From contig JAJDTP010000005.1 of NCBI GenBank assembly GCA_022827095.1, forward strand, positions 711,919-775,918: a stretch of DNA of 64,000 bases, written 5' to 3'. The translations under genes were made by a program, and so were the position numbers. Shown piece by piece: positions 55,728 to 62,375 of this stretch (positions within the stretch are counted from its first letter, which is position 1; each line of letters opens with the position of its first letter). Under the pieces are notes generated by a model that saw only the letters and a list, made by a program, of their open reading frames with translations, was not told the DNA's origin and made no database searches. The DNA is from Dehalococcoidia bacterium. Its GTDB lineage: Bacteria > Chloroflexota > Dehalococcoidia > Lucifugimonadales > UBA3495.

Positions 55728-56381
55728 ATGTTCGTGTCACCCAGGAAATTCATTCTTCTCGCAGTGCTGCTGACCGTCGCGTTGGCGGTTTTTGTGCTGT
55801 CCTGCGCGCCTGCCTCTAACCAGGGGCAGGGGGACATGGCCGGCATGGATATGTCGGCGATGGCGATGGACGAGAGCGACGTCGATCTGAAGATCGGTGA
55901 GACGACGCCGCCATTCACGATGATCCTGTCCGACGGCATGGAGGTCTCGTCCGCCAGCCTGGCCGAAAAGGGCCGGGCCTCGCACCTGTTCTGGTTCGCA
56001 ACCTGGTGACCGGAATGCCGCGCTGAGTTGCAGACGCTTGACCCGATCGCCAGCGAATTTCCCGAGATCGACTTCTACGTCGTCGCCTACAACGAAACCG
56101 CCGCGGAGATCGACGCGTATATCCAGGAGAAGGGTTACACGGACGTGATCGCCGCGCAGCCCGTGGGTACCATGCTGGCGGACCTGGAGATCACTCGCCA
56201 GATGGCGATGATGGCAGTGAACGCCGACGGGGTGATCTACCACCGGCAGTTGATGGGTAGCGCGGATCAGTGGTCGCCCGAGTTCATCGCGCTGACCGCC
56301 GACCCGCACGCGCTGCCGACCAAGCAACAGGTGAAACAGGAGCAGGACCGGCGGCTGCTGGATATGCAGCTGCCGGCTTGA
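55728..56381 (+). CDS. Selenocysteine-containing thioredoxin-like lipoprotein (Sec94)
   Basis: Read through TGA at 56007-56009 as selenocysteine, this is a 217-residue TlpA/ResA-like protein. Signal: MFVSPRKF, a hydrophobic run, and a lipobox ending VLSC. A Met/Asp-rich stretch follows (MAGMDMSAMAMDESDVD), then the thioredoxin-like domain: IGETTPPFTMILSDG, LFWFATW-U-PEC-RAELQTL, FYVVAYNETAAEIDAY, and the cis-Pro region AAQPVGTMLADL. Sec94 replaces the first cysteine of the usual CxxC, Cys97 is the second. Downstream reading stays in frame and conserved to the stop at 56381. It is probably an extracytoplasmic thiol-selenol oxidoreductase. The next gene is a divergent duplicate. Without recoding it would look like two broken genes. 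Confidence 0.8.
56020..56037 (+). promoter_or_regulatory. SECIS-like hairpin after the first Sec codon
   Basis: GCGCTG (56020-56025) pairs with CAG (56031-56033) and CGC (56035-56037), with A56034 bulged. The apical loop is AGTTG, and 16 bases separate it from the TGA. The loop has a G in its first two positions, which is the known bacterial SECIS pattern for SelB recognition. Confidence 0.65.
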
Positions 56382-56421
56382 TGACAGTAGGCTCCGGCGT
56401 CGTCGACGCCGCACGGTGGAA

Positions 56422-57291
56422 ATGAAAACAATCAGAAAAATACTGATCACGTGCGCGGCCACCGCCCTGGTTGGGGCAACGGTGGTCGCGTGCGGTTCTT
56501 CGGATGCTCCCGAGCAGCCGGCCGCGCCGCAGCAACCGGCGGCCACGGTGACGGCGCCCACGACTGCCCAGGAACAGGCGCCCGCGGCTGCGGCCGCACT
56601 GGCCGCTCCGGCAGCCACCTCGGCTCCGGACCAGTCTCCGGCGAAAACATCGCCGACGGCGACTTCAGTGCCGGTTGCTGCGGCCACCACCGCTCTGCCA
56701 ACCGACTCGCCGGCGAGCGCCCCGGTTGTGACGGCCGCGGCCGCGGCGCCAGCCACAGCGGTTGCCGCCACCGAGACGCCGGCGATTCAGCCGCCGCCGG
56801 CCGCCACGGATACGCCGGCGCCGCATCCCACCGTCACGCCGGCCCCGGCGGCCGAAGTCGGGACCGATGTCGGTGAGACGCCTCCCACATTCACCATGAC
56901 CTTGGCCGACGGCACGAACGTGGAGTCGGCGAGCATTGTGGGGAGCGGGAAGCCGGTCTTCATGATGTACTTCGCCACCTGGTGACCAGTCTGCCGCGCC
57001 GAGTTACGGACGCTCAGTTCCATAGTTCCCAATTACGCAGACCGGGTCGACACCTACGTGGTAGCCTTCAACGAGAGCGGAGACACCATAGACAACTACA
57101 TCGCAGATCAGGGTTACAGCAGCATGATCGCGGCTGTGCCGGTGGGAACCATGCTGGCCGACTTGAAAATCGTCAGCCAGTCGTCGATGATCGCCGTGGA
57201 CGGCGAGGGCGTGATCACCTTCCGCAAGGGATACGGCAGAGGTGGCGACGCGGCAACGCTACAGGGGCAGTTCGAGCTGTTGGCGCAGTAG
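56422..57291 (+). CDS. Selenocysteine-containing thioredoxin-like lipoprotein (Sec188)
   Basis: Read through TGA at 56983-56985, this is a 289-residue lipoprotein. N-terminus: MKTIRKILITC and a lipobox ending VVAC. A long Ala/Pro/Thr linker (about residues 25-140) acts as a spacer. The thioredoxin-like domain follows: VGETPPTFTMTLADG, FMMYFATW-U-PVC-RAELRTL, TYVVAFNESGDTIDNY, and AAVPVGTMLADLK. Sec188 and Cys191 form the U-x-x-C motif. The domain aligns along its whole length with the protein at 55728, so the pair arose by duplication. Start could be GTG at 56416 instead. Intergenic spacing to the first gene is about 40 bases, so they form an operon. Confidence 0.8.
56996..57013 (+). promoter_or_regulatory. 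SECIS-like hairpin after the second Sec codon
   Basis: GCGCCG (56996-57001) pairs with CGG (57007-57009) and CGC (57011-57013), with A57010 bulged and loop AGTTA. It has the same geometry as the hairpin at 56020, and one U-A pair there is C-G here. Confidence 0.65.
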
Positions 57292-59313: not shown

Positions 59314-60418
59314 ATGGAAGAACTGCGCCAGCAGCTTGAAGACATGTCCACCAAGTTGGACGCGGTCATGGAGCGTCTTTGACCTGGTAGCCCGGGAAGA
59401 ATCCATCGCGCAACTGGAAAAAGAGGCTTCCGCGCCCGGTTTCTGGGACGATGCGGCGGCCGCCCAACGCAAAATGCAGGAACTGGGCAAGTTGCAGCAG
59501 TCCGTGGAGTTGTGGCACGGCCTGCGGTCCCAGGTAGCCGACCTGCTCGAGCTCACGACGCTGGCGATCGAAAGTGACGATGAAAGCGTCGCTGACGAGT
59601 TGACCGCCGAGACGGTGACGGCTGCCGCGAGCCTGGCCAGGGCGGAGATGGAACTGACCCTGTCGGGTCCTTACGATGATCGCCCGGCGATATTGACAAT
59701 CCACTCCGGTGCCGGAGGAACCGACTCCCACGACTGGGTCGAGATGCTCACCGGCATGTATTCCGGCTGGGCTAGCACCAGTGATCGGCCAGTCCAGGTT
59801 CTGAACACCGCCTATGGCGACGAGGCTGGCCTGCGGACCAGCACGCTGGAAATCGGCGGGCAGCACGCCTTCGGGTACCTCAACGCCGAAGTGGGGGTAC
59901 ACCGGCTGGTGAGGATCTCGCCCTTCGATCCCGCGCGGCGGCGACAGACATCGTTCGCCCGAGTCGAGGTGTTGCCGGCAGCGCTCGATGACGACTCGGA
60001 TGTCGAACTGCGGTCCGACGACCTGAAAATGGATTTCTTCCGTTCCAGCGGCCCCGGGGGTCAGAATGTGCAGAAAGTCGCGTCTGCGGTGAGGTTGACC
60101 CACTTGCCTACCGGCATCGTCGTCTCTTGCCAGACCGAGCGGTCACAACACCAGAACCGCGACTACGCGATGAGGATCCTGCGGGCCAAGTTGCTGGCGC
60201 TCCGAGAAGAAGAACGCGCCCAGGAATTGTCAGCGCTGCGCGGCGAGCGGGTCTCCGCCGAGTGGGGGAACCAGATACGGAGTTACGTCCTGCACCCGTA
60301 CAAGTCGGTCAAGGACCACCGCACGGACCATCAGATGGGCAACGCGGACGCTGTGCTGGGCGGCGACATCGACGGGTTCATCGAAGCCTGGCTGGTGAGC
60401 CGGCTGGGGGCCGATTAG
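59314..60418 (+). CDS. prfB: Peptide chain release factor 2, made by programmed +1 frameshift
   Basis: RF2 ends translation at UGA and UAA. The ATG at 59314 (after GGAGGG) opens a 22-codon frame that stops at TGA 59380-59382. Shifting +1 at CTT TGA C continues from GAC at 59381 to the stop at 60418, giving about 367 residues, the normal RF2 length. The stop-recognition tripeptide SPF is in VRISPFDPARR, and the GGQ catalytic motif in SSGPGGQNVQKVAS. Annotators that ignore the shift will report a truncated N-terminus. The stop overlaps that of convergent ribBA by 3 bases. Confidence 0.96.
59370..59383 (+). promoter_or_regulatory. prfB autoregulatory frameshift site
   Basis: GGAG (59370-59373) lies 3 bases before CTT TGA C (59377-59383), the same layout as the E. 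coli Shine-Dalgarno-like element and slippery CUU UGA C. Low RF2 slows termination at UGA and favours the shift, so RF2 controls its own level. Confidence 0.92.
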
Positions 60419-61647
60419 CTGGAAACGTCGGGCAAGCTGGCCTGCACAGGAGACAGCAGGTGACCCATGCTGTCTCGCTTGGTCCGCATGTATTCCTCGT
60501 TGGTCTCGTTCGGAGGCACGGCCAGGCTGACCCGGTCGGTCACCTGGATGCCGAGACCGCTGATACCGGCCATCTTGTGCGGATTGTTGGTAGCCAGCCG
60601 CGCATGGGTGATGTCGAGATCGCGCATGATCTGAACGGCGAGATCGTACTTGCGCTCATCGGGCTGGAAACCCAGGGCCACGTTGGCTTCGATGGTGTCC
60701 AGTCCCCGGTCCTGGAGGGAGTATGCGCGGATCTTGTTGTGAAGGCCGATACCGCGTCCTTCCTGGCGCAGGTAGATCAGAGCGCCGCATCCCTGGTCGA
60801 AAATCATCCGAATTGCCAGGTCCAACTGCTCGCCGCAGTCGCATTTGAGGCTGCCGAAGGCGTCGCCGGTCAGGCACTCGCTGTGCACTCGAACCAGCAC
60901 TTCGTCACCAGCCTGCCAGTCCCCGACAACCAACGCGGCGTGCTCACCGCTGTCTATCGAGCTGCGATACCCAATTATCCGAGCCACACCGTACCTGGTC
61001 GGCAGGTTCGCCTCCGCCACGCGGGAGATCAGCGTTTCAGTGTTGCGCCGGTGGGCGATCAGTTGCGCGATGCTGAATATTTTGAGGTCGTGCTGGGCGG
61101 CGAACTCCTCCAGTTCCGGCAGCCGGGCCATCGTGCCATCGGCGTTCATGATCTCGCACACCACTCCGGCAGGATAAACCCCGGCCGCATTGCACAAATC
61201 GACGATTGCTTCAGTATGGCCGGGGCGTTTCAGGACGCCGCCGGGGTTGCTGCGCAGGGGGAACATGTGCCCGGGATGGACGAAATCAGCGGGCAGCACG
61301 TTGGGGTCGATTAGCGCGCGGATGGTGGCGCTGCGATCATGTGCCGATATGCCGGTTGACGTACCACGCTTGTAGTCGACGGAGGTTGTGAACGCGGTTG
61401 GCTGAGATGACGGAGCGTTGCGGCTCCTGAGGTTGGGGATCTGGAGCTCGTCCAAACGTTCACCCTGCATCGGCACGCACACCAGGCCTCGGGCGTGGGT
61501 CACCATGAAAGCTATCGCCTCAGGAGTGGCGTGCTCGGCGAACAGGAACAGGTCTCCCTCGTTCTCGCGCCCCTCGTCGTCGACCACGATGACAAATTTG
61601 CCGGCGGTCAGATCTTCGAGCGCCTCTTCAAGGCTGCATAGGGGCAT
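60415..61647 (-). CDS. ribBA: Bifunctional DHBP synthase / GTP cyclohydrolase II
   Basis: Supplies both starting compounds of riboflavin synthesis. Residues 1 to about 205 form 3,4-dihydroxy-2-butanone-4-phosphate synthase (DDEGRENEGDLFL, VTHARGLVCVP, RPGHTEAIVDLCNAAGVYPAGV around residues 140-161). From about 205 to 410 lies GTP cyclohydrolase II, with zinc cysteines in SECLTGDAFGSLKCDCGEQL and the catalytic RQEGRGIGLHNKIRAY. It is the last gene of the rib operon. The first domain duplicates the activity of the neighbouring ribB. Confidence 0.96.
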   Translation of the reverse strand: MPLCSLEEALEDLTAGKFVIVVDDEGRENEGDLFLFAEHATPEAIAFMVTHARGLVCVPMQGERLDELQIPNLRSRNAPSSQPTAFTTSVDYKRGTSTGISAHDRSATIRALIDPNVLPADFVHPGHMFPLRSNPGGVLKRPGHTEAIVDLCNAAGVYPAGVVCEIMNADGTMARLPELEEFAAQHDLKIFSIAQLIAHRRNTETLISRVAEANLPTRYGVARIIGYRSSIDSGEHAALVVGDWQAGDEVLVRVHSECLTGDAFGSLKCDCGEQLDLAIRMIFDQGCGALIYLRQEGRGIGLHNKIRAYSLQDRGLDTIEANVALGFQPDERKYDLAVQIMRDLDITHARLATNNPHKMAGISGLGIQVTDRVSLAVPPNETNEEYMRTKRDSMGHLLSPVQASLPDVSS

Positions 61648-61739: not shown

Positions 61740-62375
61740 TCAATCGGAATCCGGAGGAGACGGATCATGCTCACGGCGGTATTCGATCAGGTCCATTATG
61801 GACAGGATGTTCAACTCGTGCTTCGCAGCCAACTTGATCAGGTCGGGGAGGCGCGCCATGGTGCCGTCGTCCTTCATGATCTCGCACACGACGCCGGCGG
61901 GATACAGACCGGCCAAACGGCACAAGTCCACGATGGCCTCAGTGTGGCCGGGACGAACCAGGACTCCGCCGGTGTGATAGCGCAACGGGAAGAGGTGGCC
62001 GGGCTGGATGAAGTCCTGAGGACGGGCATCGGGATCAATCAGCGCCCGGATCGTGGCCGCGCGGTCCTGTGCGGAGATGCCGGTCGTTGTGTCGATGGCA
62101 TAGTCGACGGGCATGGTGAAAGCGGTTGGCATGGGCGAGTCGGAGTGCCGACTGGGCAACATCGGGATGTCCAATTCGGCCAGCCGCTCCGCGGTCATCG
62201 GCATGCAGAGCTGCCCACGCGCGTGCGTGACCATGAAGTTCACGGCCTCGGGGGTTACGAACTCGGCCGGCATGACCAGGTCGCCCTCGTTTTCACGGTC
62301 CTCGTCGTCGACCACGATGAGGAATTTGCCGGCTTGCAGGTCTTGCAGACCCTGTTCGATGCTTGCCAACTGCAT
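61740..62375 (-). CDS. ribB: Stand-alone 3,4-dihydroxy-2-butanone-4-phosphate synthase
   Basis: Converts ribulose 5-phosphate to DHBP and formate. At 211 residues it matches a single-domain RibB. The active-site parts DDEDRENEGDLVM, VTHARGQLCMP, GISAQDRAATIRALID and RPGHTEAIVDLCRLAG are all intact. It is closely similar to the first domain of ribBA 92 bases further down the operon, so this organism carries two DHBP synthase domains. Either a duplication with redundant activity or one has specialised. Confidence 0.94.
   Translation of the reverse strand: MQLASIEQGLQDLQAGKFLIVVDDEDRENEGDLVMPAEFVTPEAVNFMVTHARGQLCMPMTAERLAELDIPMLPSRHSDSPMPTAFTMPVDYAIDTTTGISAQDRAATIRALIDPDARPQDFIQPGHLFPLRYHTGGVLVRPGHTEAIVDLCRLAGLYPAGVVCEIMKDDGTMARLPDLIKLAAKHELNILSIMDLIEYRREHDPSPPDSD

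Follow-up and report, generated by a model that had tools for sequence, protein, structure and literature searches.

A reading frame that is cut by an in-frame TGA and then continues raises the question of whether that codon ends a gene, has arisen by error or is read as an amino acid. Such a frame lies in the window, by which we mean the whole 64-kb stretch of DNA analyzed here (G000:C5:711919-775918, from a 3.8-Mb genome that is 97.65% complete). An earlier note on this DNA had read the TGA as selenocysteine (Sec), placed at the first active-site Cys position of redoxins. Read-through translation bears out this layout: gene 1 starts with ATG at 55728, meets TGA at 56007-56009, where it reads FATW-U-PECRAEL, and stays open to TGA at 56379-56381, the first half of a double TGATGA that closes the gene. 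The downstream half, with VVAYNETAAEID and VGTMLADL, is present as had been described. Absent from that note was gene 2, a tandem paralogue (56422-57291) that begins forty bases after gene 1, shares 44% protein identity with it, reads FATW-U-PVCRAEL across its own internal TGA at 56983-56985 and stops with TAG at 57289-57291 (an alternative GTG start is possible at 56416). Each protein has an N-terminal hydrophobic signal followed by a Cys in a lipobox-like context (VLSC in gene 1, VVAC in gene 2), and in gene 2 a long Ala/Pro/Thr linker of more than 100 residues comes next. No clear Shine-Dalgarno sequence was seen for gene 1.

Table 1 Features of the tandem redoxin genes, in window positions
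Feature	Coordinates	Strand	Basis or remark
Gene 1, predicted Sec-containing redoxin-fold lipoprotein, 217 aa	55728..56381	+	Read-through translation, Pfam, structure model
Putative lipoprotein signal peptide of gene 1, ending in VLSC	55728..55805	+	Sequence MFVSPRKFILLAVLLTVALAVFVLSC; lipobox assigned by pattern
Predicted Sec-TGA of gene 1, first residue of UPEC active site	56007..56009	+	87 further domains have TGA at the aligned position
bSECIS-type hairpin of gene 1, GCGCUG-AGUUG-CAG-A-CGC, bulged A on 3' side	56020..56037	+	Folds alone; covariation in relatives
Gene 2, predicted tandem paralogue, Sec-containing redoxin-fold lipoprotein	56422..57291	+	Read-through translation, identity to gene 1, Pfam AhpC-TSA
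Predicted Sec-TGA of gene 2, first residue of UPVC active site	56983..56985	+	
bSECIS-type hairpin of gene 2, GCGCCG-AGUUA-CGG-A-CGC	56996..57013	+	Folds alone; covariation in relatives

Because gene 2 repeats the TGA at the same codon, and because the pattern TGA-N6-TGY-N6-GAGTTR occurs at two sites in the 64-kb window (precisely the two Sec-TGAs) where 0.01 would be expected, the in-frame TGA is not a product of chance. As the earlier note had stated, TGA also serves as an ordinary stop here: it terminates 11 of the 31 long open reading frames of the window, gene 1's own end included, so a genome-wide change of code is not indicated.

A cell that reads TGA as Sec needs the corresponding machinery, and the check for sel genes proposed earlier returned all four: selA (E 2e-162), selB (E 3e-106), selD (E 2e-112) and selC, the tRNA-Sec, which scores 66.4 bits in Rfam against a cut-off of 47 and carries anticodon tca according to ARAGORN. 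The selD gene (L029 1393-2445, minus strand, genome contig C20) has an in-frame TGA of its own, read as SHCAGUAAKL, and would make a Sec-containing selenophosphate synthetase. selA lies 3.3 kb past the window end, about 10-12 kb from the redoxin pair (G000:C5 764000-786000, L136 / L137); similar selA spacing in several members of the genus (e.g. G008, G010) makes this neighborhood look conserved.

To see how the TGA fares in relatives, we ran the gene 2 domain as query against 99 related genomes and read the DNA of the better matches. Matches were found in 94 genomes, and TGA stands at the first active-site codon in 88 domains from 61 of the 99, all of the same order; every one of the 88 has Cys at +3 (UxxC), and 26 genomes hold two or more copies. 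Named records among the relatives are Chloroflexota/Dehalococcoidia metagenome-assembled genomes, two of them single chromosomes, and the isolate names suggest a marine or sponge habitat. Across a sample of 400 genomes from the whole phylum, no more than 7 matched at E 1e-12 (the host genome and six others, two of these with TGA), so the host's order is where the group is concentrated. One further locus (L077, G059 C1:506200-508900) holds two Sec redoxin domains in a single uninterrupted read-through frame with one TGA each, possibly a fused double-Sec protein.

Comparison with Cys homologues, which the earlier note had suggested, yielded three near homologues with Cys at the TGA codon (in G072, G080 and G091), as is also the case in canonical TlpA. 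G080 and G091 gave no selA match though these genomes are 97% and 91% complete, while the Cys form of G072 sits in a selA-bearing genome; conversely, three TGA genomes, 75-83% complete, lack a selA match. Over all 99 genomes, the TGA form occurs in 58 of 84 with selA and in 3 of 15 without (Fisher P = 0.0008, uncorrected for kinship and genome completeness). A tree built on 134 columns requires four label changes, leaves its deep forks unresolved and does not decide whether Cys is ancestral or derived; it places the Cys form of G091 beside the Sec form of G053 (support 100/93).

Against G001, G011 and G004, gene 1 has dN of 0.06 and dS of 0.63-0.81 after the TGA, and dN is well below dS in this part of both paralogues within the genus, which indicates purifying selection on the downstream codons.

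Bacterial Sec insertion calls for a SECIS element just past the UGA, and the check for one found a SECIS-type stem-loop in both genes, with the apical loop 16 nt from the TGA, the loop sequence AGUU(A/G), six pairs and, in the host genus, one bulged A. Both window hairpins conform to the published bacterial SECIS model (PMC13188914). Their folding energies (−10.4 and −9.2 kcal/mol) are not unusual relative to dinucleotide shuffles (z = 0.61 and −0.04), so the case for a SECIS element rests on covariation. Between gene 1 and gene 2, a U-A pair is already replaced by a compensatory C-G pair, and across 48 diverse sequences all six pairs show compensatory changes on both sides, with a covariation score of 0.502 compared to 0.177 ± 0.023 for shuffled alignments and at most 0.156 when the hairpin is slid. 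The inner three pairs form in 78 of 78 distinct sequences. As for the loop, the Leu codon at +7 is TTG or TTA in all 84 domains with Leu there, compared to 20% TTR among Leu codons elsewhere in the domains, a bias that preserves the GUU of the loop. Relative to synonymous recodings, the hairpin is more stable in TGA genes (mean z = −1.95) than in Cys genes (mean z = −0.35), and it is weak or absent in the Cys homologues. Run on the whole genome, a covariance model of this hairpin (R1) scored the two known sites alone (E 2e-6), with three other matches near chance (E 2.8-8.3); no selenoprotein reading was apparent at the two of these that were read (L150, L151). Since R1 misses selD, the selD hairpin would be of another sequence type.

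These observations bear on three rival explanations of the TGA. Under translation table 11 each frame ends at this codon, as it would if the TGA were a true stop and the genes were pseudogenes or gave truncated products; that relatives might also stop here had been raised at the outset, but an identical codon in 88 domains from 61 genomes, dN well below dS after it and a conserved, covarying hairpin render this explanation extremely improbable. Decoding of TGA as Trp, Cys or some other residue, through a changed code or a near-cognate tRNA, would account for a frame that is open past the TGA in both paralogues. It is at odds, however, with the termination of 11 of 31 long frames at TGA, including that of gene 1 itself, with a true tRNA-Sec(tca) and selA, selB and selD in the same genome, and with near homologues that carry Cys rather than Trp, two of the three in genomes without a selA match; we consider it highly improbable. 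A sequencing or assembly error, also contemplated earlier, gains some footing from the probable origin of the window in a metagenome-assembled genome, like those of its relatives, yet two independent sites on one contig and the recurrence of this codon across dozens of genomes, the single-contig chromosomes OY282456 and OY282494 included, reduce its probability to almost nothing. The Sec reading, supported by the sel genes, the conserved TGA, the covarying hairpin and the downstream purifying selection, is thus as strongly backed as sequence alone permits, and both genes very probably encode Sec-decoded, exported UxxC oxidoreductase lipoproteins of a Prx-like/TlpA-like type.

To place the proteins among known redoxins, we turned to domain and structure comparisons. 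Gene 1 matches Pfam PF00578 (AhpC-TSA; 32.1 bits, cut-off 26) and PF08534 (Redoxin; 31.3 bits, cut-off 26.6), gene 2 matches AhpC-TSA above its cut-off, and both families were matched by 16 of 16 members; a PHROGs search gave no match. An AlphaFold model from 16 sequences, with Sec modeled as Cys (pLDDT 91.2, pTM 0.87), puts U at residue 43, at the start of helix 1 (helix 44-59), and its best structural matches are ResA and peroxiredoxin/Tpx thiol peroxidases (Z 17-19), with ResA the closest fold. At the site before the third core strand where thioredoxin-fold enzymes nearly universally have a cis-proline, a residue thought to keep metals off the CxxC motif, all 88 TGA domains have something else (Ser in 72, Met in 10, Ala in 5 and Thr in 1), whereas nine of nine canonical Cys TlpA proteins from related genomes have Pro. 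The Cys form of G091 also keeps a non-Pro residue. Peroxiredoxins, for their part, combine a TxxC/U peroxidatic motif with Arg at the site of the cis-Pro (PMC2757866), in place of which this group has UxxC and Ser, Met, Ala or Thr.

The TlpA/ResA family label given earlier therefore holds in part: the nearest fold is ResA and the active site lies on helix 1, but the cis-proline is missing and the NCBIfam ResA and DsbE models stay below cut-off (38 bits against 123, and less). The same evidence weighs on a further alternative, in which Sec is inserted and the protein is nonetheless a cytochrome-maturation protein of ResA/CcmG/TlpA type or a Dsb-type reductase fed by DsbD/CcdA. The ResA fold and the sub-threshold DsbE/ResA matches speak for it. 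Set against it is the replacement of cis-Pro in 88 of 88 domains; when this residue was changed to Thr in a CcmG homologue, the protein no longer functioned with CcdA in vivo (PMC5909903). A search for DsbD_TM/CcdA (PF02683), in which 10 of 14 controls were positive, also gave no match in the 97.65% complete host genome. Searches of the same genome for VKOR and DsbB likewise gave no match, with positive controls in each. The missing cis-proline together with the lack of a detectable DsbD/CcdA suggests that these proteins are not apocytochrome reductases of the ResA/CcmG type, an assignment we consider unlikely; more probable roles are those of a surface thiol peroxidase or of a disulfide reductase that draws electrons from a different donor.

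An extracytoplasmic UxxC oxidoreductase function would follow from the modeled fold and the motif. In the mechanism we propose, SelB would bind the hairpin 16 nt past the UGA and deliver Sec-tRNA(UCA), so that the ribosome inserts selenocysteine rather than stopping; after export, the protein would receive a lipid at the lipobox Cys and stay anchored to the membrane, where its thioredoxin/peroxiredoxin-like domain would display U-x-x-C at the start of helix 1. In catalysis, the selenol would attack a disulfide or an oxidized substrate, and the Cys at +3 would resolve the intermediate as a selenenyl-sulfide. We infer Sec insertion, lipidation and the direction of electron flow, and the higher reactivity of the Sec nucleophile and its surface location, both put forward in the earlier note, are likewise predictions. 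Candidate roles may include peroxidase, another disulfide reductase and metal binding. A selenol-thiol metal site is conceivable, given the supposed role of the cis-proline in keeping metals away from CxxC. It is possible, if doubtful, that the group forms a distinct Sec redoxin subfamily, with UxxC, Ser (or Met/Ala/Thr) at the cis-proline site, membrane tethering and hosts without DsbD/CcdA, VKOR or DsbB, acting as an extracytoplasmic selenol enzyme independent of the customary membrane electron donors (a peroxidase or a selenol-thiol metal site).

Sec families of Prx-like/TlpA-like type have been cataloged since 2005: UxxC proteins of the Prx-like and thiol-disulfide isomerase-like kinds were described in Sargasso Sea data (PMC1088965) and counted in the GOS data (PMC2398784), and a 2026 inventory lists both together with Redoxin UxxC selenoproteins (PMC13188914). 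Going by the published descriptions, the window pair shares with the Prx-like (thiol:disulfide oxidoreductase) selenoproteins of PF00578 an AhpC-TSA/Redoxin domain, a Trx-like UxxC rather than TxxU, marine bacterial hosts (probably so for the pair) and a bSECIS hairpin (PMC1088965, PMC2398784, PMC13188914), and differs in being a conserved tandem lipoprotein pair of an uncultured Dehalococcoidia lineage. The thiol-disulfide isomerase-like selenoprotein (cd02966 TlpA-like, UxxC) and the Redoxin family protein (PF08534, UxxC), also compared by description, likewise have Sec in place of the first Cys of the TlpA/redoxin CxxC motif (PMC13188914, Table 1). With the Cys forms ResA, CcmG and TlpA, the pair has in common the fold, the active site on helix 1 and (as predicted) membrane tethering, but it has Sec for Cys and no cis-proline, and the host genome gave no DsbD/CcdA match. 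Etrx2 of Streptococcus pneumoniae (4hqz/2yp6), an exposed lipoprotein thioredoxin with a TlpA-like domain that is among the best Foldseek matches, differs in its Cys active site and is about 21% identical. Our literature search found no paper on such proteins in Chloroflexota/SAR202, which does not prove that none exists. The pair is thus a well-supported new case among known Sec redoxins and not a new recoding; the cis-proline replacement, judged against canonical TlpA and not against published Sec members, may define a subfamily.

Standard gene callers truncate both genes at the TGA, and mis-annotation is therefore likely in the 61 of 99 related genomes that carry the group. The hairpin offers a clean case of bacterial SECIS covariation and a possible model for selenoprotein searches in Chloroflexota, and the loss of cis-proline together with the presence of Sec provides a direct test of that residue's role in thioredoxin-fold enzymes.

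Two minor observations concern the window itself. After the lipobox of gene 1 lies a Met-rich stretch, GDMAGMDMSAMAMD (window about 55830-55876), which resembles copper-binding Met motifs and has similar counterparts only in the nearest relatives (G001, G011, G004). Further downstream, the adjoining genes at 60415-61647 and 61740-62375 both have, by eye, an N-terminal RibB-like domain (beginning MPLCSLEEALEDLTAGKF and MQLASIEQGLQDLQAGKF), a partial duplication.
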